In this document: positions 18,159 through 43,520 of the stretch, one piece after another | Position numbering within the stretch: position 1 is the stretch's first letter | How the letters are laid out: each line of letters opens with the position of its first letter | NCBI RefSeq assembly: GCF_000424545.1 | Contig: NZ_KE384209.1 | Span: 3,149 to 67,148, forward strand | Length of the DNA stretch: 64,000 bases | Reading direction: 5' to 3' | Source: Butyrivibrio sp. NC3005 | GTDB taxonomy: Bacteria; Bacillota; Clostridia; Lachnospirales; Lachnospiraceae | Program-made: the position numbers and the translations under genes | The notes under the pieces: generated by a model | Database searches by the model: none | What the model was told of the DNA's origin: nothing | The model's input: only the letters and a program-made list of their open reading frames with translations

Positions 18159-18230
18159 TTGACAAACACCAAATGTTGCATTAAGCTAACTAAGGTTGGT
18201 GAGGGCTGACTGATGTTAACTTAATGCAAT
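18159..18230 (+). promoter_or_regulatory. Promoter with paired candidate metal-repressor operators before the intact transporter operon
   Basis: TTGACA at 18159-18164 is followed at 17 bases by TAAGCT, a weak minus-10. Overlapping it, GTTGCATTAAGCTAAC (18175-18190) and GTTAACTTAATGCAAT (18215-18230) form a 16-bp inverted repeat with two mismatches around 24 bases. The first matches GTTAG-N6-CTAAC at eight of the ten fixed positions, and the second is a looser match in the opposite direction. A repressor bound here would block the promoter. If transcribed, the same repeat could form a long hairpin. Confidence 0.5.
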
Positions 18231-18300
18231 TGGCTCGGCTAATCATAAATAGAAGCATACTTGAATTCATGAAAAAAACGTGTTAGGGAGGATGACAAAG

Positions 18301-25433: not shown

Positions 25434-25453
25434 AAAAGACAAGAAGTCATAGG

Positions 25454-25641
25454 TTATTGTTTCTATATAGTCCGTTTTACTGTTTGTATATTTCGTCGCA
25501 GACACGCTTTCGCTTGATTATAAACGTAGTGGTACGTAATGCGCTAAAAAACAGCGCATAAGTACCAACGTTTATATACAGTTCTGCTCATGAAATATTA
25601 CAAGCCAGTAAAACTCATTTATCAAATATAAGTAACAATAA
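25454..25641 (+). repeat. Complete fold-back repeat A (188 bp)
   Basis: The element begins TTATTGTT and ends AACAATAA, a perfect 8-bp terminal inverted repeat. The two halves remain roughly complementary along the whole length: GTTTTACTG pairs with CAGTAAAAC, TATAAACG with CGTTTATA, TGGTAC with GTACCA and ATGCGCT with AGCGCAT around AAAAAAC. The copy at 53503-53690 differs at one base. No coding frame fits. The form suggests a MITE or a structured intergenic element. No target duplication is evident. Confidence 0.9.
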
Positions 25642-25680: not shown

Positions 25681-25696
25681 GTTAGCTGAGTCTAAC
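25681..25696. promoter_or_regulatory. Candidate metal-repressor operator 2 at the siderophore operon promoter
   Basis: GTTAGCTGAGTCTAAC has perfect arms with the same N6 spacing as operator 1, extended by a T-A pair. It lies 19 bp before the first start codon of the biosynthetic operon and directly after a weak promoter (TTGCAA 25653-25658, TATGTG 25676-25681). A bound repressor would block transcription initiation or early elongation. Confidence 0.65.
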
Positions 25697-25714
25697 ATAA
25701 GAAATGGAGTAACA

Positions 25715-26455
25715 ATGAACAAAAATGGCTATTTTAGAGCTGATTCTTCTAGTAAAAGTAAAGTTCGTCTTTTTTGTTTTCCGTATGCAGGTGGAGGCGC
25801 TTCTGTCTTTAGAAAATGGCAGGATGCTTTGGGAAGTTATGTAGAGGTTTTACCGGCACATTATAAAGGTCAAGAAGACAGAATTATGGATAAGCCAATT
25901 TCAAGTATGAAAATACTGGTAGATGAAATATACGAAGAACTTTCATTGCTGGCAGATAGGCCTTTTTACCTGTTTGGGCACAGTGTCGGAAGTAGAGTTT
26001 CATATGAGCTTGCATTAAGGCTGGAAGAAGATGAAAACAGCTTTTTCAAAGGTTTGATAGTATCAGCTGGTCTTGCACCTGATAGACCTGAGGTTAATCC
26101 AATTTATAATCTTCCAGATAGAGAATTTTTTGAAGAATTAAGCAGATATAACAAAACTCCTGAAGATATATATAACGATAAAGCTCTATGGTCTGTATTC
26201 GAACCTATGTTGCGGGCAAATTTCAAGCTTGCTGATACTTATTGCAATAAAGACGAAATTAGTATTTCAGTACCAATTCTTGGATTAAGAGGAACAATGG
26301 ATCCAGAGATATCTTCGGAGGATTTACTAGAGTGGGGGAGATATACACAAAAAGGCTTTCAAAGTGAAAATATTGAAGGTGCTCATCTTTTTATAGATAC
26401 GAATCCAAGACAGGTTTTATCTAAGGTAACAGATTTTTTTAATAATTGCGCATAA
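25715..26455 (+). CDS. External (type II) thioesterase of the siderophore NRPS
   Basis: A 246-residue stand-alone thioesterase of the GrsT/YbtT family, which removes wrong or stalled acyl groups from carrier proteins. It has RLFCFPYAGGGASVF near the start, the GHSVGS nucleophile motif (Ser near 91) and the catalytic His in GAHLFID near 228. ATG 25715 follows GGAG by 7 bases. It is the first gene of the biosynthetic operon, 19 bp after the candidate operator; the next gene starts 11 bp after its stop. Confidence 0.88.
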   Translation: MNKNGYFRADSSSKSKVRLFCFPYAGGGASVFRKWQDALGSYVEVLPAHYKGQEDRIMDKPISSMKILVDEIYEELSLLADRPFYLFGHSVGSRVSYELALRLEEDENSFFKGLIVSAGLAPDRPEVNPIYNLPDREFFEELSRYNKTPEDIYNDKALWSVFEPMLRANFKLADTYCNKDEISISVPILGLRGTMDPEISSEDLLEWGRYTQKGFQSENIEGAHLFIDTNPRQVLSKVTDFFNNCA

Positions 26456-26466
26456 GGAGAAAATAA

Positions 26467-28044
26467 ATGAAATATGGAGAAGCTTTTAAGTGTTTTCAAT
26501 CTATAGAAGGTTGGAATAAAGGCACCATAGGCGAGGAAATGCTTAGGTGGTGTGATTTGTATACTGATAAAACAGCAGTAATATCTTCAGAAGAAAATCT
26601 TTCATACAGTGAACTTGGTGAAAGAATACTTCTTGCTTCAAAAGGTTTTATCAATGAAGGAATAAGATTAGGGGATAGAGTTATTTTACAACTTCCAAAT
26701 TCAATAAACTTTATTGTCTCGTTTTTTGGCTTATTGAGAATAGGTGCTATTCCTATTATGGCACTACCGGCACATAGAAGCAGCGAGATACTTGGAATGG
26801 TGAAGACAGCTAATCCTACAGCATATATTTGTCAGGATTTTTATGCAGGCTTTTCCTATGACGATTTAATTGAAGATGTTCGGAAAAAGGAAAGCGTGAA
26901 ATATATTATTACAGTTCCTGAAGGCGAGAGTATTCTTGATAATCTTGATTGCAAATATGAAGATTATATTCCTGCACCGGATAATCTTGATATTGCATTT
27001 CTTTCACTTTCTGGCGGGACAACCGGAATGTCTAAACTTATTCCCAGAACACATGGAGATTATTTATACGATTCAAAAGTATCAGTAGATAGATGTTTAT
27101 TAACTGATGAGGACAGGATGCTTATAGTACTTCCTATAGCACACAATTTTGTTTTGGGACACCCTGGATTTATAGGAGCTTTTAGCGTGGGGGCAACACT
27201 GGTATTAAATGAGTATTCGGATATGAATGAGGCACTGGAGAATATAGAAACATATGGTGTAACATTTATGTCTTTGGTTCCTTCTATGGCTAAATTGATG
27301 CTGGAAATATTGGAAGAGGAAGACTTTGATATTAGTTCATTACGTGTTCTTCAGATTGGAGGTTCCTTTCTTGAAGAAGAAGTTGCCGAGAAACTTATGA
27401 ATTTAAATTCTTTTACCCTGCAGCAGGTTTTCGGAGTAGCAGAAGGACTTAATACTATGACCTCATTAACAGATGAAAAAGACATAGTGAAAATGTATCA
27501 GGGAAAGAAATGTTCTTCATATGATGTTATTAAAATCGTTGATGAAGATGGAATAGAATGTCCTGCAGGACAAAGTGGTAATCTTTTGGTTTCGGGTCCA
27601 TATACTATCAGGTCGTATTATAACCACCCTGAAAATGATTCTTTTTTTACAAAAGATGGATTTTACATAACAGGTGACAGAGCTTTTGTTACAAAAGATG
27701 GAAATCTGAAAATTGTAGGAAGAGTTAAAGAAATGATTAATAAAGGCGGAGAGAAGATTCTTCCTTCTGAATTGGAAACTTTGCTTTATGAAATGGATAC
27801 TGTTAAAGATTCAGCTGTGGTAGGCATTCATGATGATAATCTTGGGGAAAAGATATGCGTATTTATAGTAGGTAGCAAAAAAACAGGACTTAGTGAAGTT
27901 AGAAACTATCTTTCACAAAAAAATATTGCTGCATTCAAACTTCCTGACATGGTTGTTCATATAGATAAGATGCCGCTTACAAAGATTGGAAAAGTAGATA
28001 AGAAAAAACTGGTACAAATGGGAGAGGAATCAAATGGAAAATAA
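26467..28044 (+). CDS. Aryl-acid-AMP ligase (DhbE/YbtE-like) with atypical pocket
   Basis: A 525-residue stand-alone adenylating enzyme that should activate an aryl carboxylic acid and load it on the ArCP domain of NRPS 1. It has LSGGTTGMSKLIPRTH (P-loop), the HN pair of the aryl family, YITGDRA, GRVKEMINKGGEKI and the catalytic lysine in TKIGKVDKK. In DHB-specific enzymes I recall the segment after HN as LSSPG, and in salicylate-specific ones as LACPG. Here it reads HNFVLGHPG, with His at the position that contacts the ring, so the substrate may be neither standard acid. It overlaps the next gene by 11 bases. No salicylate or dihydroxybenzoate synthesis gene is in the window. Confidence 0.85.
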   Translation: MKYGEAFKCFQSIEGWNKGTIGEEMLRWCDLYTDKTAVISSEENLSYSELGERILLASKGFINEGIRLGDRVILQLPNSINFIVSFFGLLRIGAIPIMALPAHRSSEILGMVKTANPTAYICQDFYAGFSYDDLIEDVRKKESVKYIITVPEGESILDNLDCKYEDYIPAPDNLDIAFLSLSGGTTGMSKLIPRTHGDYLYDSKVSVDRCLLTDEDRMLIVLPIAHNFVLGHPGFIGAFSVGATLVLNEYSDMNEALENIETYGVTFMSLVPSMAKLMLEILEEEDFDISSLRVLQIGGSFLEEEVAEKLMNLNSFTLQQVFGVAEGLNTMTSLTDEKDIVKMYQGKKCSSYDVIKIVDEDGIECPAGQSGNLLVSGPYTIRSYYNHPENDSFFTKDGFYITGDRAFVTKDGNLKIVGRVKEMINKGGEKILPSELETLLYEMDTVKDSAVVGIHDDNLGEKICVFIVGSKKTGLSEVRNYLSQKNIAAFKLPDMVVHIDKMPLTKIGKVDKKKLVQMGEESNGK

Positions 28045-28606
28045 TAGTGAATTTAACGTGTATGATCATCATGATATGTTTGAAGATATGGTAAAGGCAG
28101 AGGAATTTTGCTATAAGTACAATTCAATTCCGATGTCACATTTCGATGAGCGTTTAAGCCTTTTGAAAGGTTTCTTTGGAAAATGTAATGGAGATTTTTT
28201 GATTTTTTCGCCATTTAAATGTTCGCTTGGCTATAACGTGGAAATTGGAAATAACGTTGCCATCAATTCATATTGTTCAATACTTGATGGCGGCAAGGTA
28301 AAACTGGGCGATAATATCTGGATTGGTACCAATTGTGAAATTGTAAGTTCAGGTCATAGCGTTGATCCGGAAAAAAGAAAAAATGGAGTAGGATATGCTA
28401 ATCCTATTGTAATTGAAGACAATGTGTACATTGGTTCAAGAGTAACAATTGTATGTGGACAAAATCATGGAATAACCATAGGTAAAAATTCTGTAATAGG
28501 TTCTGGAAGTGTTATTACAAAGGATGTTCCTGAAAACGTGCTTGTAGTAGGTAATCCGGCAAGAATCGTAAGAAAACTCACAGAGGATGATAAGGCATGC
28601 GAATAA
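28034..28606 (+). CDS. Hexapeptide-repeat O-acyltransferase (Maa/NodL type)
   Basis: A 190-residue left-handed beta-helix acyltransferase. An N-terminal helical part with MSHFDERLSLLKGFFG precedes hexapeptide coils (about 70-180) with the catalytic-type SSGHSVDPEKR loop, NVYIGSRVTIVCG and NPARIVRKL close. Family members acetylate sugar hydroxyls with acetyl-CoA. Its start lies inside the AMP-ligase gene and its end inside the glycosyltransferase gene, so it is translated with the siderophore genes. The likely target is the sugar added by the next enzyme. Yersiniabactin and pyochelin loci, as I know them, have no such gene. Confidence 0.82.
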   Translation: MENNSEFNVYDHHDMFEDMVKAEEFCYKYNSIPMSHFDERLSLLKGFFGKCNGDFLIFSPFKCSLGYNVEIGNNVAINSYCSILDGGKVKLGDNIWIGTNCEIVSSGHSVDPEKRKNGVGYANPIVIEDNVYIGSRVTIVCGQNHGITIGKNSVIGSGSVITKDVPENVLVVGNPARIVRKLTEDDKACE

Positions 28607-29844
28607 CCGCTATAACACTTGGATCATACGGGGACATAATGCCTTTTATGCTACTGGGACAAGAACTAATAAAAAGAGGATATAAATATAGATTGGCAAG
28701 TTTTGAATCACTGCGACCTAAAGCGTATGAAATGGGACTTGAGTTTTCTAAAATATCCGGAGATATGGATGAACTTGTAGGAGTGTTGCTGGGTAACAGT
28801 GATAATACAAAAAAGGCAGGAATGAATGGACTTGAATATCTTATCAGCAAATATCCCGGTCTTTATGATGATCTTGATAGAGCAGTAAAAGACAGTGATG
28901 TTCTTATATATATGCAGTTTGGCGCGATAGCATATCATTTTGCTCAAAAATATGGAATCGAAGTTATAAGGAGTATGGCTTTTCCATTTGAAAACACTAA
29001 ATGCTATGCGGCTATGATGGATACTCTTACAAGGAATAGTATTAAGTGTTATTTACTGAACGTTATGTGTGAAAAAATGATGGCATATGCCGTTAGACAT
29101 ACAGTAAATGATTTCAGAAAACGACTTGGTCTCAAATCCTGGAATATTTTTAAGAGTTATAAGAAACTTCGTGGAAAAAGAATTTTGACACTTTATCAGT
29201 TTGATGAAGTTCTTGCAGATAGAGATAAAAAGTGGAAAGACAACATTTATCTTACTGGAAACTGGATAAAACAGGACAAGACAATAAAACCTGAAACAGA
29301 GAAACTATTAGATTTTATAGATAAACATGAAAAGGTTATATATGTTGGCTTTGGAAGTATGAACTATGCTCACATGGACGAACTATATGCAAGGGTTATA
29401 TGGATTGCGTTACATGAAGGGCGTTCAGTGATATTGCCAAAGTATGAAGAAAAGATGGTTAACGAAAGATTTTCGGCTTCAAAAGATAAGATTCTTCTGG
29501 CTGGATTTACACCTTATGAACAATTCTTTGACAGGCTTGAATGTGTTATTCATCATGGCGGAAACGGTACTGTTCATGCGTGTCTTAGAGCTGGCGTTCC
29601 ACAGCTTGTAATGGTGTTTGGAGCAGATCAGGCTTTTTGGGGTGGACAATGCTACTATAGAGGACTTGGTCCAAAACCTGTTTTTATCAAAAAGCCTATT
29701 GATGAGGCAGAATTTAGAGAAAAAGTAACTGATTTAATGGTAAATGATAACTATAAAAAATGTTCGCAAAGATTATCGAATAAAGTAACTTCTGATGGAC
29801 TTGTGCGTGCTGCAGATATTATAGAAAGAAGATTTCCTTTATGA
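28597..29844 (+). CDS. GT1-family glycosyltransferase in the siderophore operon
   Basis: A 415-residue GT-B fold glycosyltransferase of the UGT/MGT type. The N-terminal motif TLGSYGDIMPF (near 7-17) and the C-terminal sugar-nucleotide site GFGSM (near 251) and HHGGNGTVHACLRAGVPQLV (near 316-335), then FGADQAFWG, are all present. Enzymes of this family glycosylate natural products and lipids; IroB of salmochelin synthesis is a GT1 C-glucosyltransferase of a catecholate siderophore. It overlaps both neighbours (10 and 4 bases) and so is surely co-expressed with the NRPS. Glycosylation of the siderophore or its aryl cap is the likely role; sugar and site are unknown. Confidence 0.87.
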   Translation: MRITAITLGSYGDIMPFMLLGQELIKRGYKYRLASFESLRPKAYEMGLEFSKISGDMDELVGVLLGNSDNTKKAGMNGLEYLISKYPGLYDDLDRAVKDSDVLIYMQFGAIAYHFAQKYGIEVIRSMAFPFENTKCYAAMMDTLTRNSIKCYLLNVMCEKMMAYAVRHTVNDFRKRLGLKSWNIFKSYKKLRGKRILTLYQFDEVLADRDKKWKDNIYLTGNWIKQDKTIKPETEKLLDFIDKHEKVIYVGFGSMNYAHMDELYARVIWIALHEGRSVILPKYEEKMVNERFSASKDKILLAGFTPYEQFFDRLECVIHHGGNGTVHACLRAGVPQLVMVFGADQAFWGGQCYYRGLGPKPVFIKKPIDEAEFREKVTDLMVNDNYKKCSQRLSNKVTSDGLVRAADIIERRFPL

Positions 29845-32800
29845 ATATTGATGAAATATGGATGCAATTTGAAGAAAGAATAAGAAAAGCAGTAAAAAAC
29901 GATGAATTTATGCCTGATACAAAGCTTACGGAAGTAGGAATAGATTCTATTACTTTGATGAAGTTTGCGTCTTTTCTCAGAAGAAAAGGTTTGAAGGTTA
30001 ATTATGGGGAGTTAATAAAGAATCCCACATTAAAAGACTGGAAAGAACTTGTGTGGATGAAATTTGAAGCTTTAAGTGGGAATGAAGCTAATTCACAGAG
30101 GTCAAATGATGCTATTGAAAATAGTGACAATGGTTCAAGTAAAACTAAATTAAGTGAAATTGAGTTTGATTTAACAGATGTTCAGTATGCTTACTGGGCA
30201 GGACGTCAGGATGATCAGGAACTTGGCGGAGTTGGATGCCATGCATATTTTGAATTTGACGGAATAGGTGATGATGATAGTAGATTGCGTAATGCTTGGT
30301 ACAAGGTTCAAGATGCTCATCCTATGCTTAGAGCTGTTTTTACAGAGGAAGGAAAACAGAAAATTTATGCAAAAAGAAAGTATCTTGAACCTGTATTTCA
30401 TGATTTTAGAAGTTTTACAAGACAGGAGGCAGATGAAAAACTTCTTGAAATAAGAAACAGATTATCTCATGAAAAATTAAAAGTTGAAAACGGCGAGAAT
30501 ACGCATCTTGAAGCAGCTTTTATGAAAAATGGAGAAAGAAGAATTTTTCTTGATGTTGACCTTCTAGTGGCTGATGTTGCAAGCGTGCATCTTATAATAA
30601 TGGAGCTTACAAAAGCTTACTTGGGTCAAAAGCTTTATAACTATGAAATAGACTGTTTTAAGAAGTATCTTGATAAGAGAAAAAATGATGCAGAAACATT
30701 GACTGAAGATGTAGCATATTGGAAAGAGAAAATAACTGATTTTCCAGAAGAGCCAATAAGCCTTCCATTAAAATCAAGGCCTGAGGAAGTTAAGAAAAAT
30801 CATTTCGTAAGAATAAGTAAGAGCTTTTCTTGTGATGTATGGTCAGTATTGAAGGAAAGAGCAGCAAAATATGAGCTTTCACCTGCAATGTTTCTTTTAA
30901 CAGCATATGCGAATGTATTAAGCAGATATTCAGGGCAGAATAAATTCCTTATTAATATTCCACTTTTTAACAGGTTCGATGATGATGAACGTACAGAGAA
31001 AATAGTTGCTGATTTTACAAATCTTCTTTTGCTGAATACTGAAAATTCCGGAAACAAATCTTTTTTGGATTATGCAGTAGAAATAAAGGATAACTTTTCT
31101 AAAGATGTCTCACATTCTTCATATTCAGGAGTTAATGTTGAAAGAGATCTCTCGAAACACAACAAAGCAGTGCAGAATATGGCTCCTGTTGTATTTGCAT
31201 GCAATATAGATTTTCCTTTTGAAACAAAAGAAAGTCGCGATGTTCTGGGAAAACTGTCATATATGATTTCTCAGACTCCTCAGGTATGGCTTGATTTTCA
31301 GTCTTTTACAGATATGGGGAAACTTATTCTTTGCTGGGATTATGTAGAAGATCTTTTTAGTAAAGAAGTAATTGAAGAGATGTTTAGTGCTCTTACAGAA
31401 GAAATAGAAGAGCTTTATAACAGCGATGATTGGAATAAAGTATTTGATGTTCTTCCAAAGAATCAGAAAGAAAGACACGAAAAAGAAGAAGATATTCTTC
31501 CTATGGACATTGAAAATGTATCACTTTTGTCTGGCTTTGTTCAAAACGCGGTTAAAATCCCTGATTCACCAGCGCTTATTTCTGTAAAAGATTCCAGAAT
31601 AACTACCTACAAAGAACTTGCAGATATAGCAGGAAAAGTGGGTTCGTATCTTAAAAGCCATGGAATAAAAAAAGGTGACTATGTTGCAGTTACGCTTCCT
31701 AGAGGTTATAGACAGATATATGCCATTATGGGAATTCTATATGCAGGAGCTGTTTACGTTCCGGTTGGAATAAACCAGCCGGCAGATAGAAGAATCAAGA
31801 TTTATGAACAGATTGGAATTACTGCTGTTATAAGTGACTTACAAACAAAGGAAACGATAGAACTTGCTATAGATAATGTTATTGATCTTGATAAGGCAAT
31901 GGAATGCAGTACTAACATTGCTCCGGAAATATTACCAGATAATTCCGCCTACGTAATCATGACATCGGGTTCTACAGGCATGCCAAAAGGTGTAGAGATT
32001 GTTCATAAAGCAGCTATGAATACAATCACTTATTTATGCAAAAGATACAATTTCAAAGCGTTTGATAAAATGCTTATGGTATCTGCCATAGAGTTTGATT
32101 TATCTGTGTTTGATATTTTTGGAATGCTGTATTCTCAGGGAGCAATAGTTATTCCGGAAGAAGATTCATTCAAGAATCCGGAAGTGTGGCTTGAATTAAT
32201 TGATAAGTATGGTATTAACAGATGGAATTCTGTACCCATTCTTTTTGATATGCTTATTACCTATGCCGAAGGTAAAAAGAAAAAGGTTTATTTCGATACA
32301 GTTTTTATGTCTGGAGATTGGATTCCAGTAAATCTTCCAGGAAGATTCTATGATATTGCAGGCAAAAACAGCCTTGTTGTCGCAATGGGCGGAGCTACAG
32401 AAGCATCCATCTGGTCCAATTATCAGGAAGTTCCCAGAGTTATTCCGGATAACTGGCAATCTATTCCATATGGAAGACCACTTAAAAATCAGTTGTACAG
32501 GGTTATAGATGATTATGGCAATATTTGTCCTGATTATGTTGCTGGTCAGTTGTGCATAGGCGGAGCAGGGGTAGCTGCGGGTTATAAAGGCGATTTAAAT
32601 CTTACTCAAAAGAAATTCTTTAAAGAAGAAAACGGTATCAGATGGTATAGAACAGGTGATAATGGAAGAACCTGGAGCGACGGAACAATAGAATTTCTGG
32701 GAAGAAGAGACAATCAGGTTAAAGTTAAAGGCCATAGAATTGAGCTTGGTGAAATTGAAAACGCAATTAAGCAGTATCAGGGAGTTAGAGGCTCAGCGGT

Positions 32801-35800
32801 TCTGGCAATTCCTTATGAGAATAAAGGTAATAGAATTGTAGCATTTATTCAATCTGAAAAGATTAAGACCTCTTATAACAAAGAATATGAAATTTCAAAG
32901 AAAGTCTATTCTTTGGAGGAAATCAACAGTGGTAAAGAGAAATTAAAGCAGATTGGAATTTTGTCAGATGATTTTATACAACGAGCTGTAAATAATAATA
33001 AAGGTGTAAACAGCAATATTATTAAATATTGGAAGAAACTAAATGTTAAGAATGTAGGTGTAAGTATAGAAGATACCCGTGCTAATAAGGATATTACCAA
33101 GATGTACGAGAGTGTTCTTGATATACTTCCTGATATATTTAGTGGAAAGATTGATCCAATAGAGTATTTCTATGATCTTGCCAGTGATTACAGACCAGAT
33201 CAGCTGTTGGAAAAGCATCAAGAGACTGAAAAAGCCCATGAGCTGATTTTGGAAATGGTTAAATCATATCCTGTGAAAAAGGGTTTGAAAATTCTTGAAG
33301 TAGGAGGACGAAATCCTAAATTTACAGGTAGTGTTCTTCAAAAAATGTCCGGAAGAATTGAAAAATATACATATCTGGATAACACAGAGTTTTTCAGAGC
33401 CGGATATGAGGATATCGTAAAAGGCTTTTCGGAATTTGAATACAGTGTAAATGGTCTTGATGCTATCAGCGTAGATGGAACAATGTTTGACGTAGTCATC
33501 ATTCCAGAATCTATTCATAGACAAAAAGATATAGATAAAACAGTTAAGCTGTTTGGAAATATCACTGTTTCCGGGGGGATTGTAATAGGGTGTGAACCTT
33601 CTTCTAATCTAAAAATGATTAATACGATTCCGGCTATCCTAGAAGATGGTTTTGCAGAATATGACCTTGATAAGAGAGGCGGAAGTATCATTCCAGGCAG
33701 AGAGTATCTAGAGAAGACATTTAATGAAAATGGCTATGAACTTCTCCATCTTTCAGATAAAGCTGAAGAAATGGCAACTTATTCAATTATCTATGTATTT
33801 AGGCAGCAGTATATGCAGAATATAGATATTGATGGGTTAAAAGACTATCTTATTAAAGAAATACCATCTTATATGATTCCGTTTAAGTATTACAAAATGC
33901 AGGATTTTCCTCTTAATAAAAACGGAAAGATTGATAGAAAAAAGCTTCTTCAAATTTTTAAGGAAGAAAGAAATTCAGAAAACAATCAAGAGGAAAAAGA
34001 TGGAATTAGGTCTAAAACAGAGAATTTTGTAGCAGAAATACTGAAGAATATTTTAGGAGTTGAAAACATTGGAAGAAATGATAATTTCTTTTCGCTTGGA
34101 GGAGATTCTCTATCTGCGACAAAGTTTATAGCTATAATGCGAGACCAATATGGATTGCAACTTTCTATAAAGAATATTTTCGAGAATCCTGTAATTAAGG
34201 ATTTGTCATCGTTTATTGACGGACATAAGGATAATATTAAGGCAGGAGGCGATGAGAAATTCATTGTCCATAGAGAAGACTGGAATAATCCATTTCCTCT
34301 TACTCAGGTTCAGTTTGCATATTGGATTGGAAGAAAGGGTGCGTTTAGCCTTGGCAATGTTGCAACACATTGCTACTACGAGTATGAATGCAATCACATT
34401 GATATTCCTTTGTTCCAGAGAATATGGAATGAAATGATTAAGTACCATGGAATGCTCAGGACTGTAATAGATAATAATGGAATGCAGACAATGCTGGATA
34501 AAGTTCCATTCTATACCATGAAGACAATTCACGCAGAAGGTGTATCAGAAGATACAAAGAAGGGTATTCTTGAAAGTGTTAGAAATAAAATGGAAGCGTT
34601 GGTTACAGAAACTGATAAATGGCCTTTGTTTGATATAAGAGTAACAGTTTTGTCAGAGGAGAAAACTATTATTCATATAAGTTTCGACAATATTATTCTG
34701 GACGGATTTAGTATGTTCCATATTCTGCAGGAAATGGCAGAAAGATATAAAGAAGCTTTGTCGGGGCAGAGTATTCAAAGAAAAATTCCTGAAGTTTCTT
34801 TCAGAGACTATGTAATAGATCTTGAAAGAAAAAGGGCTTCGAGAAGATATGAAATAGACAAAGAGTATTGGACTAACAGGCTTTCTTGTTTTTGTAAAGC
34901 ACCAGTGTTTCCATTAATTAAAAATGAAGATGAAATAAAGGTTCCAAAGTTTGTAAGAAGACAGTATAAGTTATCACAAGACTGCTGGAACAAGTTAAAA
35001 GATGCTGCAAAAGAAATGGAGATTACTCCATCTGCATTTATTATTACTGCTTATGCAGATGCACTAAGAACTGAAAGTATTAATAAGAGTTTTTCAATTA
35101 ATCTGACGCAGTTTGGAAATGATATAAGTCATAAAGATGCAGATAAAATAGTGGGAGATTTTACACGTTTATCTTTGCTGGAGATGAAGAACATACAAGA
35201 AAGCTCCTTTAATGAAAGATGCAAGAAAGCAGCAAAGCAGATTTCAGATGATTTGGAACACTCTTTGTATAGTGCAGTTGAATATGAAAGAGAACTTAGA
35301 AAGCGTGATAACAATCCGGTTAATTCTATTATGCCTGTTGTATTTACGAGCGGAATAGGTGTAAGTGATTTGTCACAGGAAAAATCGCTCGGAAAGCTTG
35401 TATATAATATCTCGCAGACACCTCAGGTATGGATTGATCATCAGGTATTTGAACAGGATAAGGGGTTAACGCTTAATTGGGACTGCGTTGATGAACTTCT
35501 TTCAGCACAGCTTTTGGATAGAATGTTTGAATATTACATAAGTCACCTTATCGATATGATTGAAAACAAAGAAAAGCGTGCAGAAATTCAGGTTGTTGAG
35601 GATGATGAGCAAAATGAGCTTTCTTTGCAAAATAGTATTCCTACAGAAGTATCATTTCCTGATAACGAAAGTACAGAAGTAAAGAAAGAACCTGAAATAG
35701 CTATAGTAAAGGGCGGAAGATACATTTCAAAAGTTGCCCAGATATGGGAAAGCGTTCTTGGTGAGAAGGTTGTGGATATGGATAGTACATTCTTCGAACT

Positions 35801-35951: not shown

Positions 35952-36974
35952 ATGGTATACGGAATAGTTGGAGCTTCAGGAGTCATAGGAAGTAAGGTTT
36001 CTGAATACCTTGAGAATAAAGGAAAAAATATTCTTAAAGCAGGTCGTCATTATTCTTTTTCTGGAAATGAGTATTGTCTTGATGTGTACAAAGAAGATGA
36101 GGTAAGAGAATTTGTTTCCAAATGCGATGTTGTAATTAATTGTTCTGGTCCATCTATGAAGACTTCAAAAAGTATTCTTCCTGAATGTCTAAATCAGGGT
36201 AAGGATTATATAGATGCCTTTGGATGGATGCCTGATATAACAAAGGTTTACATAGGAAACTGTAGAGTAGTTCTTAATGCAGGAATGGTTCCCGGTCTTC
36301 CGGGAATCCTTGCTGCATATATGAAAAACTATGGCGCAGAAAAGCTTATACTCTATAGCGGAGGTCTTGAAGAAGGCAGCAGGGCATCACTTGAAGATAT
36401 GCTGGAAACAAGTATTAACGGATATAGTAAACCGGGATTTATTGTAGAAAATGGAGAGCTAAAAAGACTTTCTGAGCCAAATCTGTTACTTGATGAAAGT
36501 ATCAATCTTCCAGAAGAATGTGAAATCAGTCCTTTATATACGGCTGAAATTGAAGAAATAAATAATATTTTAGGTTTTGGTAATATAGAGAACTATAATA
36601 TTTTTCCAAATAAAAAAATGAGATCTTATTTGATGGAAGGCTGTATGAAATATAGTCAGGTAAAAAGCAAAGAAGAACAGGAATCTGTAATCGAAGATAT
36701 ACTGGGAAAACTAAAAAAAGTCTGTGAAAATAAATCTTTCTGGTACAGATTTTACTTAAAGGCTGTTTCTGAATATGAAACGCAAGTTATTGATATTAAA
36801 ACCGATAATAGTGCGGTTATCACATCGACAGTTATAGGTCACATTGCTAAAAGGCTTTGTGAAAAAAAGTTTGATGCAGGTTTTTATAGACCATTTGAGA
36901 TAGCTGATGGACAAGAATTATTAGATGAACTTCAAAGTGAAGGAATTGATATAAATATTTATGGGGAAATATAG
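35952..36974 (+). CDS. Saccharopine-dehydrogenase-like NAD(P)-dependent reductase
   Basis: A 340-residue protein with an N-terminal Rossmann motif IVGASGVIGSKV, CDVVINCSGP (near 58-67) and NAGMVPGLPGILAAY (near 113), the pattern of the saccharopine dehydrogenase NAD(P)-binding group. Its ATG directly follows the stop of NRPS 1. It is a second reductase beside the thiazolinyl imine reductase. It may reduce another ring, or a C=N or C=O of the product. Which bond it acts on is not deducible from sequence. Confidence 0.75.
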   Translation: MVYGIVGASGVIGSKVSEYLENKGKNILKAGRHYSFSGNEYCLDVYKEDEVREFVSKCDVVINCSGPSMKTSKSILPECLNQGKDYIDAFGWMPDITKVYIGNCRVVLNAGMVPGLPGILAAYMKNYGAEKLILYSGGLEEGSRASLEDMLETSINGYSKPGFIVENGELKRLSEPNLLLDESINLPEECEISPLYTAEIEEINNILGFGNIENYNIFPNKKMRSYLMEGCMKYSQVKSKEEQESVIEDILGKLKKVCENKSFWYRFYLKAVSEYETQVIDIKTDNSAVITSTVIGHIAKRLCEKKFDAGFYRPFEIADGQELLDELQSEGIDINIYGEI

Positions 36975-36975
36975 G

Positions 36976-37965
36976 ATGAGTAAAGTAAGAGTATTACTGT
37001 GTGGAACTGTTTTTGGAAGTATTTATCTAGATGGGATAAAGAATTTAGATAATTGGGAGCTTTGCGGAATATTATCTAGAGGAAGTGATCGTTCAGTTAA
37101 AATCTCTCAGGAAATGGGTGTCCCGTTATATAAAGATGTATGTGATGTTCCGGAAGGAATGTTTGACGTAGCATTTGTTGTAATTCGTTCAGGAATCGTA
37201 GGCGGGGAGGGCCAAAAGATATCTGAAAAGCTTCTTGATAAACATATAAATGTGGTGCAGGAGCAACCGGTTCATGCTGATGAAGCTGCCGTTTTATTAA
37301 AAAGTGCGCTAAAGAATAATGTTTCTTATATTGTAAATACCTTTTATCCATATATGGAGTCTTCGACTGCATTTCATGAAAAACTTTCTGAGATTAGAGA
37401 AAACAATCAGATTATTAGTATAGATGGATGCTGTTCTCTTCCTGTGCTTTTGCCATTTATAGATCAGATTGGAAGAACAGCAGGCCTTCTTAGACCATGG
37501 AGTATAGAAAATGTCTTTTCAAACGGGGCATGTGACTTTGTTACAGGCAAAATAAGCGGGATCCCGTTTTCTATAAGAATTCAGGGAAGAAAGAGTGAAA
37601 GCAAGAATCAGGCTTTTGTTCTAAATCAAATAAATGTTATGACTTCATCGGGAAATCTTATAATGACCGATGTTAATGATCAGGTTATCTGGATGAAGAA
37701 ACCCTATGTTGTAGAAGAGTTTATAAAGAACGGAAGAGAAGATGATGAAAAAGACGTTTACGCATCTGAGATGATTTATGATGCCGGAACGAAAAAATAT
37801 TCTTTTCTTTATAAAAATATATGGCCAAAAGCAGTTGAAAATTTTCTTATACAGAACAAAGAGTTAATTCTTTCTCGAGAAAGAGACATAGGGTATATGC
37901 AGTACTATTTATCTGTTTGTAGTTTTTGGAAAGAGTTGTATAAAAAGTTGGAGGAGCTTGACTAA
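36976..37965 (+). CDS. Thiazolinyl imine reductase (Irp3/YbtU/PchG-like)
   Basis: A 329-residue oxidoreductase that reduces one carrier-bound thiazoline to thiazolidine with NADPH. The diagnostic blocks are present: VRVLLCGTVFGSIYLDGI, CGILSRGSDRS, AFVVIRSGIVGGEG, VQEQPVHADE and NTFYPYM. I start it at ATG 36976, with GGGGA at 36963-36967 as ribosome binding site; an ATG at 36961 is also in frame but lies within the previous gene. It overlaps NRPS 2 by one base (TAATG). Confidence 0.88.
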   Translation: MSKVRVLLCGTVFGSIYLDGIKNLDNWELCGILSRGSDRSVKISQEMGVPLYKDVCDVPEGMFDVAFVVIRSGIVGGEGQKISEKLLDKHINVVQEQPVHADEAAVLLKSALKNNVSYIVNTFYPYMESSTAFHEKLSEIRENNQIISIDGCCSLPVLLPFIDQIGRTAGLLRPWSIENVFSNGACDFVTGKISGIPFSIRIQGRKSESKNQAFVLNQINVMTSSGNLIMTDVNDQVIWMKKPYVVEEFIKNGREDDEKDVYASEMIYDAGTKKYSFLYKNIWPKAVENFLIQNKELILSRERDIGYMQYYLSVCSFWKELYKKLEELD

Positions 37966-40900
37966 TGAGAGATTTTTTGAATAGATGCAAAGAAAAAGGA
38001 ATTCTTATTTCTTTGAAGGATGGAAAGAATTTATCTTATAGAACTACAAAAGGGGCTATTGAGAAGGAAACAATTAGATATCTAAGAGAACATAAGAGTG
38101 AGCTTATTGATTTATTAAGAGAAAATAACGAGAGTGAGCAGATTAAAGTTAAAAAGAAAGAAGTTAATATAGAGGATCAAAAGAAAAACTATGATGTAAG
38201 TGAGAATAAAGAGGCTTGTATGTTTCCACTTACTGATATTCAGAGTGCATATCTGTCCGGCCGAAGCAGAAATTATGAACTTGGGGGTACTGGATGCTAT
38301 ACATATCTTATTTTGAAGACTGATAAGCTTGATGCTTCTTTATTTGAAGAGGCCTGGCATAAAGTTATCGAAAACCATGATATGTTAAGAGCTGTAATAA
38401 CCAAAGAAGGGCAGCAGTATATTAAAGAAAATGTTGAACTTCCTAAGCTTTGTATATATGAATCTGATACAGATGATATTGAAAATTCAGAAACGGAGAA
38501 AGAGATTCGCAGAAAACTGGAAACTTATGATTTTGATATTGAAAGTTTTCCAATGCACAAGATAATTCTTCATCAAGGCAGTAAAGAAAGTATTGTTCAC
38601 TTTTGTACAGATATGCTTATAGCGGATTATATAAGCATAAATGTTATATTAGATGATATTTTCAGCTATTATAAAAATCAAACTTTTATTCATGCAGGTA
38701 AAGGCGTAAGTTTTAGAAAGACTGTAGAGGATAAGAATAAAAAAGGCTATAGAGAAAAGTCTGAGGATTACTGGAAGAATAAAATAAGTACGCATGAATT
38801 CAGAAAGCCTCAGCTCCCTGTTAGAAGCGTTATAAGTACAGATAACGTGAAATTTACAAGACATGGATATATGCTTGGTAAAGATGATTTTATGAGTCTT
38901 AAGAATCTTTGCAAAAAGAACAATGTAACTGTTTCAAATACTATTCTTGCAGTATATGCAAGTGTTCTTTCCAAGTGGTCTGAAAACAGACAATTCTGTA
39001 TTAATGTAACTCTTATGGATAGAGGCGTACAGGAACTTGATACGGTAGGCGATTATACATCTGTTGACATTTTGGCAGTAGATACGAAAGATAAGACTTT
39101 TAGCGAGCTTGTACATGAAATTGGGATAGATATTCTGACTGATATGTCATATATGGATTATACAGGTGTTGATGTTCTTAGACAGGTTAGAAGAACAAGT
39201 TCTGACAATAACATCTTCCCTGTGGTATTTACCAGTACAGTAGGTGAGAGTAAAGAGGATGAGAAGAAGGATTATACGGTAATCGGTGGAATCAGTAGAA
39301 CTCCGCAGGTATGGATAGATTGTCAGATGATTTCTATCGGAAATGAACTTGATATTCACTGGGATGTCAGGGATGGAGTATTTGAAGAGAATGTTATAAA
39401 TGATATTTTTGATGCTTTCAAAAATGCAATCAGATTCATTTTATCTGAGGATAACTGGAATAGTAAAAATATAGCACGAGCATGTAAGCATCAGCTTGAA
39501 AAAAGAGGAAGTTATTGCACACAGGATGAATCATTGAAAGGGCACATGCTATATGAAGGTTTCATTAATAATGTTAAAGCTAACCCTGATAAAAGAGCAA
39601 TTATTTATAATGACAAGGTGTACACTTATGGAGATTTGGCTTTATATGCATCTTCTATTCAGAAAAAGCTCAAAGAAGCAGGAATTAAAGAAAAAGACAC
39701 AGTAGCAATCATTGAAGAAAGAGGTGTTCTTCAAAGCGCTTCAGCTCTGGCAGTTCTATTACTTGGTGCAATATTTGTACCAATTGATATTAATCAGCCT
39801 TTTAACAGACAAAAAGCTATAGTAGATCAGAGCAGCGCAAGCTACGTTCTTGTATCTGATAACAAGGCAGATTTTGTAGATGCGTTTGGCGATAAGCTTT
39901 TTTGTGTATCATCAATTACAAAATCAAATGAAGATGAATTAATTATTGCTGATACAAGACCTGATTCAACAGCATATATTATTTTTACTTCAGGAACGAC
40001 TGGAGTTCCAAAGGGAGTAATGATTTCACATCAGTCTGCACAGAATACTCTTTTGGATATTAATAAGAGATTTGGAGTTGGTGAAAATGATGTTTTCCTT
40101 GCTCTTACCAAACTATCTTTTGACCTTTCAATTTATGATATGTTCGGAAGTATGGATGCTGGTGCAACGGTAGTAATACCAAAGGAAAGCAACGCAGTTA
40201 ATCCATCTGACTGGGTAAAGCTTATCAAAAAATATGGTGTAACTATCTGGAATTCAGTGCCGGCTTTACTAAAAATGCTGTATTCTGAGGTAAAACTGCA
40301 GGATAAAGATAGTATTGAAAGTCTTAAGCTTATTCTACTTTCCGGGGATGTAATAGATGTGTCACTGCCTTCAAAAACAGCGGAGTATCTAAGTGACTAT
40401 AAGCTTATAAGTTTAGGCGGTGCTACAGAAGGATCTGTGTGGTCGATTTTCTATGATATTACAGGTCTTAGAGATGAAACAATTCTTCCATACGGAATAC
40501 CATTGTCAAATCAGAAAATGTATGTACTAGATGATGACTTATCTGAGTCTGCGAATATGGTAAAAGGAGAAATCTGTATAGGAGGATATGGCGTTGCGCA
40601 AGGATATTATGGAGATAAAGAATTAACTGATTCCAAGTATATTGTTATTGAAGATAAAAATGACAGAGTCTTTAGAACAGGTGATGTAGGATATATAAGA
40701 TCTGATGGAATCATGATGATAAATGGAAGAAAAGATAATCAGATCAAGATCAATGGTAACCGTGTTGAAACAGGTGAGATAGAAAGTGTTATAAGATCAA
40801 CTGGTGAAGTGGAAAACGTTGTTGTTTACTATCATAAGACAGGGCACTCAGGAAAGCTTTTTGCATTTTTAGAGCCAGGTTATGAAGAAACAAAAGACTC

Positions 40901-43520
40901 CTCATTGATGATAAAAGACTTGGAAAAAGAAGGCCAAAGTGAACTTGATATAATTGACAGAGATGGATTTACAAGATGGAGAAAACAGTCCGATGTTGCT
41001 GCCTTATCTGATATGATGGCTCTTTTTACTGATATAGGTATTTTTACAGAGAAGGACAAAGTATATTCAAGGCAGCAGATTCATGATGCGGCTAAAGAAA
41101 CAGAGGAGTTTCATTCTATTATTGATAGATTCCTAAGGGCAATGGAGCAGGCAGGAATAATAGAAAAAGTTGAAGAGGGATATCAGGTAACAAAAAAAGC
41201 CAAGCCTTATTATGATCGTGAAAAGAACTGGGATGAATTCATGAGAATTGGTGATGAAATTGATTATGGTCATGTTCTTATGGAATATCAACGACAGTCT
41301 GGAAAACACATAAAAGAGCAGATTAGAGGGGAAATTGCCGGTATTTCGTTGTTCTTCCCAAAAGGAGATACAACGGTTGCAGAAGCCGCATATAGAAATA
41401 ATATAATCAACCTTAGACTTAACAATATTGTTTCTGATATTATTAACCGTTTGGGAGAAAGAAATATTTCAATTCTCGAGGTTGGAGCCGGAGTAGGTGG
41501 AACGACTACTACTGTACTTAATAGACTAAAGAATAGAAATATCAAGTACTGCTTTACTGATGTTTCGCAGTTTTTTATCAATAAAGCAAAGGATAGATAC
41601 AAAGAATATGACAATATGTCCTATATGCTTATGGATATTAACAGGGATTATACCAAGCAGGGATTTAAGGATAAGTCTTATGACGTTATTCTTTGTGCTA
41701 ATGTACTTCATAACTCTCACAACATTGGTGAGAATCTTTCAAAGCTTAAAAAGCTTTTAAAAGATGATGGATATATTATTATTATCGAAGCCACAAAGGA
41801 ATCTTATCTTCTTACAACGTCACTTGAACTTAAGGGTGGTTTGGATGGATTTACTGATCATAGAAGAGGCGGAATAGATGTGTTTACTTCTGAAGATAAG
41901 TGGATAGAGCTTATCAAAGAAGCCGGATACAAATACTATTTCACACTGCCAGAAAGAAGTGACGAGCTTGCGGAATGTGGTCAGAGTGTTTTTCTATGTG
42001 GTAACGAGACAAAATCAGGTAAACCAAAGGTTAAACACAAGGTAAATGTCGAGTATATAGAAAAAACTATGGCATCTAAACTTCCTAAGTATATGATTCC
42101 TGATCAGATAGAGATACTTGATAGTATTCCTTTGTCTACTAATGGAAAGATAGACAGGAAAGAACTTGATAAAATATGTGCTGATAGATTAAAGGTTTCT
42201 TTAAAAATAAATGAGAGTAAGAAATCTAATCTTTCAGGATTAAGCAAGAGTGTTGCTGGTATATGGGAACAGGTTCTTGGTATAAGCGGAGTAACTTCCA
42301 AGGATAATTTCTATTATGTTGGAGGCGATTCACTTCTTATAACTCAGGTAGTTTCCAAACTTAGAGAAAATTATAAAGAATTAGAAAAACTTCCATGGGA
42401 TGAACTTATGCAGATTGTCCTTAATAATCCAACTGTAGAAGGAATGGCTGATAGCATTGGAATGTATATTGCAGATGATAACAGTCAGGGAAAAATAAAA
42501 GAAAAGGATTATGAGGAGGGTAATAGAAGGCAGCTTTTAGATAAAACATCCAGTAATAAATCTCTAGATTTATCAGATAGCTGCGTAAGAGTTTACCGTG
42601 ATAATCCGGAAAACAGAAGATGTGTTCAGGCATATATGCATGCAGGAACAGGAAGACTTGTGGATTATGATAGTCTTATTCCACAGATTCTAAAGAACAC
42701 AGGAGATGATGTTTCAGTAATAGGATTTATGTATGGAAATTCCAACGAATATCTTGATATTCCTGCAGAAAGACTGGTAAAGGAAAGAGCTGCAAAATAT
42801 GCTGAAATCCTTTTGGGAATGAATGCAAAAGAATATGAAATTATAGGATATTGTGTGGGAGGATTTATTGCTGTTGAAACAGCCAGAATTCTATTGGAGA
42901 AAGGCAAAAAAGTTCACAATGTTTATATGATTTCATCAGAGCAGGCAACTCACAAAATTAGTAACAGACTTATTACTGAAATGGCATACGGCGTTGCTGT
43001 AGGACTTGACGTATCTCTTGCCGGATACAATTTCGATACCTATGAGATGAAGGCTGCAATGTCAGATATTCTCAAAGACGAGAACAGAGATATCAGAAAC
43101 TCTGAACTTGTAACTCTATCTGGCAGATATAAGAGTCTTGGAAGAATGTTCCTTAGCCTTATAGATAAAGAGCATGATGAAAGACTTAAAGATATTTTCG
43201 AAAAGGCAGGTGGATCAAAATTCAACGGAGATGAAAGTACATTTGCCATGTTCAGTGTACTTTACAGAATATTTGAACATACATTTAGAGGTATGTCAGA
43301 ATATTCATTTAATGAATACTACCTTGGAAATGTAGTATATATGGATGCCCCAACAGATTTTTCATTCTATCCAGTTACGAGAAAGCTGAACAAGGTAGAA
43401 GATATCTGTATCGGAAACTTTGAGAAGATTCGTATTCCAGGAAATCATGCAACTTGCCTTGATGGTAATAATTACCTGATTGTATTTGATGAGATTAAGA
43501 AAAGAAGCTGCTGCTTCTAA
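37965..43520 (+). CDS. Siderophore NRPS 2: docking-Cy-A[MT]-PCP-TE (PchF-like)
   Basis: A 1851-residue synthetase with the architecture of pyochelin PchF. Residues 1-55 resemble a TubC-type docking domain. Cy (about 86-508) has DMLIADYIS near 214 and TPQVWIDCQ. The A domain has TSGTTGVPKG near 675 and the code D-L-Y-N-L-S-L-V-W-K, one change from the cysteine code. The inserted methyltransferase (about 1000-1340) has an intact SAM motif EVGAGVGGTT near 1171. PCP GGDSL lies near 1455. The C-terminal thioesterase (about 1540-1851) has GYCVGG near 1627, a Cys in place of the usual Ser nucleophile, and His in GNHAT. It should add, cyclise and methylate the third cysteine and release the product. 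Confidence 0.92.
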   Translation: MRDFLNRCKEKGILISLKDGKNLSYRTTKGAIEKETIRYLREHKSELIDLLRENNESEQIKVKKKEVNIEDQKKNYDVSENKEACMFPLTDIQSAYLSGRSRNYELGGTGCYTYLILKTDKLDASLFEEAWHKVIENHDMLRAVITKEGQQYIKENVELPKLCIYESDTDDIENSETEKEIRRKLETYDFDIESFPMHKIILHQGSKESIVHFCTDMLIADYISINVILDDIFSYYKNQTFIHAGKGVSFRKTVEDKNKKGYREKSEDYWKNKISTHEFRKPQLPVRSVISTDNVKFTRHGYMLGKDDFMSLKNLCKKNNVTVSNTILAVYASVLSKWSENRQFCINVTLMDRGVQELDTVGDYTSVDILAVDTKDKTFSELVHEIGIDILTDMSYMDYTGVDVLRQVRRTSSDNNIFPVVFTSTVGESKEDEKKDYTVIGGISRTPQVWIDCQMISIGNELDIHWDVRDGVFEENVINDIFDAFKNAIRFILSEDNWNSKNIARACKHQLEKRGSYCTQDESLKGHMLYEGFINNVKANPDKRAIIYNDKVYTYGDLALYASSIQKKLKEAGIKEKDTVAIIEERGVLQSASALAVLLLGAIFVPIDINQPFNRQKAIVDQSSASYVLVSDNKADFVDAFGDKLFCVSSITKSNEDELIIADTRPDSTAYIIFTSGTTGVPKGVMISHQSAQNTLLDINKRFGVGENDVFLALTKLSFDLSIYDMFGSMDAGATVVIPKESNAVNPSDWVKLIKKYGVTIWNSVPALLKMLYSEVKLQDKDSIESLKLILLSGDVIDVSLPSKTAEYLSDYKLISLGGATEGSVWSIFYDITGLRDETILPYGIPLSNQKMYVLDDDLSESANMVKGEICIGGYGVAQGYYGDKELTDSKYIVIEDKNDRVFRTGDVGYIRSDGIMMINGRKDNQIKINGNRVETGEIESVIRSTGEVENVVVYYHKTGHSGKLFAFLEPGYEETKDSSLMIKDLEKEGQSELDIIDRDGFTRWRKQSDVAALSDMMALFTDIGIFTEKDKVYSRQQIHDAAKETEEFHSIIDRFLRAMEQAGIIEKVEEGYQVTKKAKPYYDREKNWDEFMRIGDEIDYGHVLMEYQRQSGKHIKEQIRGEIAGISLFFPKGDTTVAEAAYRNNIINLRLNNIVSDIINRLGERNISILEVGAGVGGTTTTVLNRLKNRNIKYCFTDVSQFFINKAKDRYKEYDNMSYMLMDINRDYTKQGFKDKSYDVILCANVLHNSHNIGENLSKLKKLLKDDGYIIIIEATKESYLLTTSLELKGGLDGFTDHRRGGIDVFTSEDKWIELIKEAGYKYYFTLPERSDELAECGQSVFLCGNETKSGKPKVKHKVNVEYIEKTMASKLPKYMIPDQIEILDSIPLSTNGKIDRKELDKICADRLKVSLKINESKKSNLSGLSKSVAGIWEQVLGISGVTSKDNFYYVGGDSLLITQVVSKLRENYKELEKLPWDELMQIVLNNPTVEGMADSIGMYIADDNSQGKIKEKDYEEGNRRQLLDKTSSNKSLDLSDSCVRVYRDNPENRRCVQAYMHAGTGRLVDYDSLIPQILKNTGDDVSVIGFMYGNSNEYLDIPAERLVKERAAKYAEILLGMNAKEYEIIGYCVGGFIAVETARILLEKGKKVHNVYMISSEQATHKISNRLITEMAYGVAVGLDVSLAGYNFDTYEMKAAMSDILKDENRDIRNSELVTLSGRYKSLGRMFLSLIDKEHDERLKDIFEKAGGSKFNGDESTFAMFSVLYRIFEHTFRGMSEYSFNEYYLGNVVYMDAPTDFSFYPVTRKLNKVEDICIGNFEKIRIPGNHATCLDGNNYLIVFDEIKKRSCCF

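Follow-up and report, generated by a model that had tools for sequence, protein, structure and literature searches.

Why would an operon for a thiazoline metal carrier encode a glycosyltransferase and an O-acyltransferase between its aryl-activating ligase and its first synthetase? The question is raised by a locus of Butyrivibrio sp. NC3005, a member of the Lachnospiraceae, that lies in a stretch of 64,000 nucleotides (contig NZ_KE384209.1, positions 3,149 to 67,148), referred to here as the window. Between 25715 and 43520, eight open reading frames (ORFs) are packed in one row on the + strand. They encode a type II thioesterase (TEII), an aryl-AMP ligase, a hexapeptide acyltransferase (AcT), a glycosyltransferase (GT), a first nonribosomal peptide synthetase (NRPS1), a saccharopine-dehydrogenase-like oxidoreductase (SacDH), a thiazolinyl imine reductase and a second synthetase (NRPS2) (Table 1). 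The favored answer, with a probability of about 0.62, is that this is an equibactin-like thiazoline metallophore operon whose product would be glycosylated and O-acylated by operon-encoded enzymes, the sugar most likely being a deoxythymidine diphosphate (dTDP)-derived 6-deoxyhexose.

The same arrangement is found in Lachnospiraceae UBA2864, where the order ABC-ABC-hydrolase-TEII-ligase-AcT-GT-NRPS1-oxidoreductase-reductase-NRPS2 is that of the window and the overlaps are identical (AcT/GT, 10 bp; GT/NRPS1, 4 bp). No energy-coupling factor (ECF) transporter genes are present at the operon site in UBA2864. Among the eight biosynthetic genes, GT shows the highest conservation, at 82% identity, ahead of the ligase (78%), TEII (77%), AcT (75%), NRPS1 and reductase (67% each), NRPS2 (66% over the first 641 residues) and oxidoreductase (46%); the two ABC genes are higher, at 86-90%. 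Synonymous sites between the window and UBA2864 are saturated in 8 of the 9 genes that yield a dN/dS value. Two thiazoline clusters are present in genome G729, which belongs to a different family of the class. One of them ends with an ECF ATPase, AcT and GT; the ECF ATPase and AcT frames share 11 bp, and the GT gene lies 42 bp further on. The stretch read of the other cluster holds neither gene. Because order and overlaps are kept in UBA2864 and the pair recurs, rearranged, in G729, the AcT-GT pair is more than a peculiarity of a single genome. Judged from gene order, it is a real part of the pathway.

Both enzymes are recognizable by profile. The AcT is over the cut-offs of PF00132, PF14602 and PF12464 (left-handed beta-helix (LbH) repeats and Mac cap), and its best NCBIfam matches, maltose O-acetyltransferase (134.6 bits) and galactoside O-acetyltransferase (131.8 bits), are below theirs. 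The GH..D motif is retained in all three aligned AcT sequences and reads GHSVD in the window, which we take to be the surroundings of the catalytic His. The GT scores 50.5 bits against PF06722 (over the cut-off), 26.1 against PF03033 (cut-off 26.2) and 59 against TIGR01426, the macrolide glycosyltransferase (MGT) subfamily (below 260). The GT alignment contains the HHGGxGT ... DQ donor motif and the N-terminal GD of GT1 enzymes. The structure model has a complete GT-B fold (pLDDT 88.6). The first-pass annotation, made from the letters of the window, had placed a GT1 enzyme and a hexapeptide acyltransferase between ligase and NRPS1; the profiles and the overlaps of 11, 10 and 4 bp along this interval bear this out.

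A pointer to the sugar comes from G729. There, the GT gene overlaps an rmlA-like gene by 4 bp, rmlB, rmlD and rmlC follow, and a second, broken AcT copy stands after the rml genes. Three of these are over their NCBIfam cut-offs (rmlB, 431 bits against 365.1; rmlD, 240 against 224.05; rmlC, 219 against 155.75), and rmlA is under its own (353 against 360.65). The copy beside the GT is the sole rmlB over the cut-off in the whole G729 genome. In the window genome, where the search covered rmlB and rmlC, these two are adjacent on contig C2, away from the operon. Because of the gene order in G729, the sugar is likelier to be a dTDP-6-deoxyhexose such as rhamnose (mass shift +146) than a hexose (+162). 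The first-pass annotation had proposed a thiazoline siderophore carrying an acylated hexose. The thiazoline line with a GT and AcT of its own is supported by the order and overlaps in UBA2864 and the co-occurrence in G729, and an acylated sugar on the product is retained as a prediction; the hexose gives way to a probable deoxyhexose.

Several points weigh against the reading of an acylated deoxyhexoside. The nearest solved GT, by sequence and by fold, is a UDP-glucose enzyme, so the donor of the window GT is not settled. The window GT is 41% identical to that of G729. No rml genes are found among the window ORFs scanned. Synthesis of a cell-wall polymer is another possible use for sugar-nucleotide genes beside a GT, and there is no confident identification of an iron-responsive operator. 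Lastly, both genes occur in 3 of 15 thiazoline loci and neither occurs in the other 12 (tblastn, stretches read), which makes them optional. The 15 loci come from 14 genomes (the window, UBA2864, G729 twice, G136, G147, G054, G088, G847, G531, G637, G615, G587, G153 and G698). The stretches span 32-51 kb each, or 21 kb for UBA2864, and some stop at contig ends (G615 inside NRPS1); chance-level AcT matches in G136 (E 0.088) and G088 (E 0.29) are uncounted. The window's own genus also includes G153, whose thiazoline cluster is a different one and carries neither GT nor AcT.

Two other explanations draw on these points. The UDP-glucose relative would fit a thiazoline metallophore with a plain hexose, in which UDP-glucose would be the donor (+162) and the rml genes of G729 would reflect a lineage-specific donor swap; this is doubtful. 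The absence of both genes from 12 loci would fit passengers that modify a cell-surface glycan or a foreign compound and are in the operon by chance. That is very unlikely, as the pair occurs in two arrangements, both overlapping operon neighbors, and in one of them a sugar pathway lies alongside.

Homology searches place the operon GTs in a narrow group. Among 3850 candidates, 572 proteins match the GT at E <= 0.001. Within the best 120 of these, a close set runs from 81% identity (P0002) to 36-38% (P0061-P0063), and scores fall from 280 bits (P0063) to 230 (P0064) and 197 (P0065). The GT tree has 102 rows, with 18 near-copies (P0010-P0031), P0001, P0002 and rows outside 380-460 residues excluded. 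A single clade of 31 rows (SH-aLRT 100) contains all three operon GTs, which are spread over its two main branches. Given the score drop after P0063 and this supported clade, the idea of the GT as a generic neighbor is rejected. Should linkage to the operon be ancestral, the remaining 28 rows would be candidates for the same function. One of them, P0048, is almost identical to the GT of G729, and source names among the best 120 include metagenome-assembled genomes of Ruminococcus (P0006) and Peptostreptococcus (P0043).

A wide distribution of the GT was not found in the genus, family, class or phylum samples, which overlap and whose counts exclude the window's own genome. In the genus, a match at E <= 0.001 is found in 20 of 78 genomes, and the top five reach 30-31% identity. 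The family sample, which covers 334 genera, has matches at E <= 1e-60 in 4 of 396 genomes (G434, G004, G244 and G031, at 27-32% identity); the stretches read from these four contain no thiazoline NRPS. In the class, matches occur in 6 of 390 genomes: G729 at 41%; G756, G781, G667 and G624 at 25-30%; and G602, which was left unread. None of the 89 other genomes of G729's family has a match, nor does any of the 397 phylum genomes at E <= 1e-90. The 22 viral contig stretches hold no GT relatives, the best plasmid match among those listed is 28% identical, and the named genome collection yields one locus, UBA2864. In G434, equibactin-like ABC/ECF genes are followed 10 kb downstream by a GT of ~31% identity, which is an outgroup in the GT tree; the 36 kb read there contain no thiazoline NRPS.

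The scaffold to be decorated can be read from the synthetases. NRPS1 has two Condensation, one AMP-binding and three PP-binding domains in Pfam, and NRPS2 has TubC_N, Condensation, AMP-binding, methyltransferase, PP-binding and Thioesterase. Together with the motifs, these domains agree with the layout first proposed, ArCP-Cy-A[E]-PCP-Cy-PCP and Cy-A[MT]-PCP-TE. The imine reductase and the external thioesterase were likewise recovered by profile (Table 1). No ketosynthase family is among the Pfam or NCBIfam matches of either synthetase, in line with the earlier statement that a polyketide synthase (PKS) part is lacking. Three cyclization motifs of the form DxxxxD were read by eye (DLLVAD, DNIILD and DMLIAD), and there are three carrier motifs in NRPS1 and one in NRPS2. 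The NRPS2 methyltransferase motif is LEVGAGVGGT; the NRPS1 insert carries a degenerate LEVGGRNPKF and is consistent with an E-type insert. With positions set by eye, the A-domain motifs are D-L-F-N-F-S-M-I-W and D-L-Y-N-L-S-L-V-W. Both A domains are read as cysteine-type, their motifs being near DLYNLSLIWK, which we take to be the cysteine code. Among solved structures, PchE (7EMY, 368 bits) ranks near the top for A domain 1, with gramicidin synthase LgrA slightly higher. The TE nucleophile position of NRPS2 is Cys, not Ser (GYCVGG); among 12 TE matches in other thiazoline loci, 8 have Cys and 4 have Ser. The ligase falls well short of the curated TIGR02275 cut-off (472 bits against 723.55), which places it in the family but not as a 2,3-dihydroxybenzoate equivalog.

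The eight genes were described earlier as a single operon, and their layout agrees with this: they share a strand, and five of the seven junctions overlap, the two beyond the ligase-NRPS1 interval being SacDH/reductase (14 bp) and reductase/NRPS2 (1 bp). TEII and ligase are separated by 11 bp, and NRPS1 and SacDH abut. A pattern scan found no terminator-like site on the + strand from ligase to NRPS1. Promoter-like matches in the operon region number 58, fewer than the 79.8 (sd 9.7) in shuffles, and the scan therefore gives no argument for internal promoters. The gene count was right, and boundaries and content needed changes. The TEII start is likelier at ATG 25715 than at 25679-25681 (GGAG at 25706-25709), the oxidoreductase at 35952-36974 had gone unnamed, and the upstream transporter genes had been omitted.

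Table 1. Features of the metallophore locus (window coordinates).
Feature	Position	Strand	Basis
15-bp inverted repeat TTGCATTAAGCTAAC / GTTAACTTAATGCAA, spacing 24 bp, 93% complementary	18176..18229		candidate operator
ABC half-transporter (permease-ATPase), EqbK/YbtP-like by type	18280..20040	+	Pfam; 89.7% identical in UBA2864
ABC half-transporter, EqbL/YbtQ-like by type	20042..21742	+	Pfam; 85.8% identical in UBA2864
Alpha/beta hydrolase (BAAT_C), EqbN-like by type, GFSVG motif	21755..22693	+	Pfam; 70% identical in UBA2864
ECF transporter S component (Trep_Strep/MptD), EqbHIJ-type importer by position	22730..23320	+	PF09605 167 bits, TIGR02185 117 bits
ECF transporter T component (CbiQ)	23317..24006	+	PF02361 56.7 bits
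ECF transporter double ATPase	24018..25433	+	two ABC_tran stretches
~180-bp interspersed repeat copy, resembling a miniature inverted-repeat transposable element (MITE), fills ECF-TEII gap	25450..25630		genome copies
Type II (external) thioesterase TEII, EqbB-like	25715..26455	+	PF00975 125 bits; start by ribosome-binding site; motif GHSVG
Aryl-AMP ligase, EqbD-like, atypical pocket His240/Ser278/Asn330	26467..28044	+	TIGR02275 472 bits, pocket alignment
Hexapeptide (LbH) O-acyltransferase AcT, LacA/Maa-like, GHSVD	28034..28606	+	Pfam/NCBIfam, alignment
GT1/GT-B glycosyltransferase GT, predicted dTDP-6-deoxyhexosyl (rhamnosyl) transferase	28597..29844	+	profiles, tree, fold model; donor predicted from G729 rml genes
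NRPS1, ArCP-Cy-A(Cys)[E-type insert]-PCP-Cy-PCP, EqbE/HMWP2-like	29841..35951	+	Pfam, motifs
Saccharopine-dehydrogenase-like oxidoreductase (SacDH), EqbM-like	35952..36974	+	PF03435 23.9 bits, under cut-off 25.1
Thiazolinyl imine reductase, Irp3/PchG-like	36961..37965	+	TIGR01761 181.5 bits, just under cut-off 188.8
NRPS2, TubC_N dock-Cy-A(Cys)[MT]-PCP-TE	37965..43520	+	Pfam, motifs

The ligase pocket for the aryl cap is atypical. In an alignment on DhbE, residues 240, 278 and 330 are His, Ser and Asn in the ligases of the window and UBA2864, Ser, Ala and Val in DhbE, and Cys, Ala and Leu in the solved salicylate ligase 5WM2; the position labels follow a mixed DhbE/GrsA numbering. By these residues, the window pocket matches neither salicylate nor 2,3-dihydroxybenzoate ligases. 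Salicylate was considered as the ligase substrate and is weakened by this non-salicylate-type pocket. The ligase of G729's GT-bearing cluster has Cys, Gln and Ile. In all nine GT-less ligases (G729's other cluster, G153, G847, G147, G088, G531, G637, G054 and G136, whose pocket also diverges at other positions), residue 278 is Ala or Gly and residue 330 is Ile or Leu; the ligases of G615, G587 and G698 are outside the stretches or were not found. Position 278 is Ser, Ser and Gln in the three GT-bearing loci. This pattern is only a lead because it was noticed post hoc and the GT-bearing loci represent two lineages.

None of the three GT-bearing genomes (the window organism, G729 and UBA2864) has a salicylate synthase over the cut-off, so the cap would be scavenged or made by an unrecognized route. 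In the window genome, a single chorismate-binding enzyme was found, and it is TrpE-like (514 bits, cut-off 517.7). A salicylate synthase over the cut-off occurs in 5 of the 14 genomes (G054, G847, G637, G531 and G088) and is also missing from 6 of the 11 GT-less ones. In the thiazoline operon of G847 (L109:1032-3995), an aryl-AMP ligase is fused to a salicylate synthase in a 987-aa frame (TIGR03494, 435 bits, over the cut-off), and G054 has a 989-aa frame of the same type. Clusters G729:C1 and C10, G615:C6 and G587:C6 have 2-3 imine-reductase matches each and several ~480-aa Cy-like proteins; the third match in G615 and G587 is weak (68 bits). With 1-3 reductase matches, a fused ligase-salicylate synthase and Cys-type TE domains, the thiazoline loci of the window's class are more varied than the equibactin model.

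Equibactin is the closest described model. Excerpts of Heather et al. 2008 (PMC3672683) list, for eqbA-N of Streptococcus equi ICESe2, the repressor EqbA, thioesterase EqbB, phosphopantetheinyl transferase (PPTase) EqbC, ligase EqbD, NRPSs EqbE/EqbG, importer EqbHIJ, ABC proteins EqbK/EqbL, oxidoreductase EqbM, hydrolase EqbN and a thiazoline reductase, taken here to be EqbF. According to the same excerpts, production is abolished without eqbE, eqbG or eqbM, is reduced without eqbN and requires added salicylate in defined medium. Liquid chromatography-mass spectrometry is reported there to have failed in an identification, and the product is taken as unsolved. Ligase and NRPS1 genes are consecutive in eqbD-eqbE and in Clostridium kluyveri CKL_1504-1505, and EqbD has Gly at 278 and Ile at 330 (PMC3672683, excerpts). 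The words 'glycosyl' and 'acetyltransferase' do not occur in the main text of that paper. Excerpts of other reports describe equibactin-like clusters in the human-fecal isolate B05, by antiSMASH (PMC6328661), and in Clostridioides difficile clade 3 (PMC6814731). An excerpted 2026 survey of peptide metallophores treats equibactin as a user of exogenous precursors, and 'glycosyl' is absent from its main text (PMC12971057).

Counterparts of Eqb B, D, E, F, G, H-J, K, L, M and N are present in the window, assigned by type without alignment to the eqb proteins. By gene content, the locus is equibactin-like, transporters included. With the equibactin locus and its C. kluyveri relative, it shares TEII, the aryl ligase, an NRPS1 of HMWP2 type, the thiazoline reductase, the EqbM-like oxidoreductase, the second NRPS with MT and TE, the EqbN-type hydrolase, the importer, the paired ABC genes, the lack of a PKS and salicylate that is not locus-made. 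The eqb functions listed in the excerpts of PMC3672683 include no GT or acyltransferase, whereas the window has both between ligase and NRPS1. Similarly, EqbG lacks an A domain and carries Ala as its TE nucleophile residue (same excerpts), whereas NRPS2 of the window has an A domain and Cys. No eqbC-type PPTase or eqbA-type (DtxR-like) repressor is among the window ORFs run on Pfam, which are a subset, and the rest of the genome was unsearched. We take the locus to work like equibactin, but as a provisional member of that type, given the atypical ligase pocket and the unseen PPTase and repressor.

Other systems share parts of the design. NRPS1 has the HMWP2 domain order of yersiniabactin (HMWP2/HMWP1), though the locus has no PKS. 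NRPS2 has the PchF order Cy-A-MT-PCP-TE of pyochelin (PchE/PchF), and an imine reductase is common to both. Compared with these two systems, the locus adds GT and AcT and has its own ligase pocket. In salmochelin, IroB C-glucosylates enterobactin with UDP-glucose, on a catecholate scaffold, and the sugar is not known to be acylated. GT1-type tailoring of a siderophore would be common to both, but the window scaffold would be a thiazoline and its sugar probably an acylated dTDP-deoxyhexose. The deoxysugar-tailoring enzymes GtfD of vancomycin and SpnG of spinosyn act on other scaffolds, which are not metallophores. No report of a glycosylated thiazoline siderophore, or of a thiazoline pathway with integral GT and AcT, was found in searches of the open-access PMC literature. 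This suggests that such a pathway, with a linked deoxysugar pathway in one lineage (G729), may be new.

In the proposed pathway, the ligase would activate an aryl acid and load the ArCP. Three cysteines would be condensed and cyclized to thiazolines, with C-methylation by the last module. At least one ring would be reduced to a thiazolidine, and the chain would be released. The GT1 enzyme would move a dTDP-derived 6-deoxyhexose (e.g., L-rhamnose) onto a hydroxyl or carboxyl group, either of the compound itself or of an intermediate still bound to its carrier, and the hexapeptide acyltransferase would acylate the sugar. The ABC and ECF transporters would carry the product and its metal complex. 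We infer product glycosylation from gene linkage; the identity of sugar and acyl group, the attachment point, the metal and the transport roles are putative. A role of the sugar in evading host siderophore-binding proteins, suggested by the first-pass annotation, is not supported: no result of the analysis bears on host proteins, and yersiniabactin-type compounds are not known to be siderocalin ligands. Solubility, uptake privacy and self-protection are equally possible purposes.

Self-protection or storage could also be reversible, with the sugar capping the metal-binding phenol or carboxylate in the cell and being removed outside or on export, so that the final siderophore is unglycosylated. 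The GT does match the MGT subfamily TIGR01426, below its cut-off, and some members of this subfamily inactivate antibiotics. Two hydrolases, the EqbN-like protein and the type II thioesterase, are linked. However, EqbN/EqbB-type hydrolases are also part of the equibactin locus, for which the excerpts of PMC3672683 name no GT. No glycosidase is seen in the operon, and the GH10/GH43 (6629-10961) and amylase-type (51402-53486) genes among the scanned window ORFs look like fibre or starch enzymes. Such reversible capping is quite unlikely.

Compatible with the acylated deoxyhexoside is a product, made by the same enzymology, that is mainly a zinc or copper carrier or an antibiotic and not an iron siderophore. 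Yersiniabactin can act as a zincophore (PMC8636617, abstract), UBA2864 has a ZupT-like gene upstream of its operon (96.6 bits, cut-off 252), and the aryl pocket of the ligase is unusual. The equibactin-type transporter genes in the window and the iron phenotype of the equibactin relative (PMC3672683, excerpts) speak for iron, and a non-iron role is unlikely.

The candidate operator, an inverted repeat, is located just 3' of a TTGACA at 18159 and 5' of the ABC genes. Further upstream (15684-18119) are short ABC-like, ECF-T-like and single-ATPase ORFs that resemble segments of the intact genes at 18280-25433 and may represent either decayed transporters or an additional set; the Trep_Strep S component there has no BLASTP match to the intact one. 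The ~180-bp repeat has 40 copies of 154-181 bp in the window genome at 88-100% identity (40 of 139 candidates scored), including window copies at 53499-53679 and 12748-12914, and the copy in the locus has imperfect terminal inverted arms (25440-25464 / 25631-25655). Just 3' of the operon (43777-50165), an anti-sigma antagonist, a MATE transporter fused to HATPase_c_2, an HD-CE protein, an RsbW-like kinase and a SiaA-like phosphatase stand in a row. Elsewhere in the genome (C1:200117-210382) is a 4241-aa NRPS frame with five condensation matches.

Among siderophores, catecholates such as salmochelin are known to carry sugars, and a thiazoline case would extend this. Tentatively, Clostridia may possess a family of acyl-rhamnosylated thiazoline metallophores, in which the aryl cap differs from both salicylate and 2,3-dihydroxybenzoate and brings a further polar group as a handle for the sugar, metal binding stays intact and the sugar serves as a private uptake key. 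If the favored reading is true, the locus would provide a ready-made AcT-GT cassette, with or without rml genes, and predicted mass shifts of +146 and +42. It would also pose the question of why a cell sugar-coats its metal carrier, whether for privacy from competitors, solubility or self-protection.

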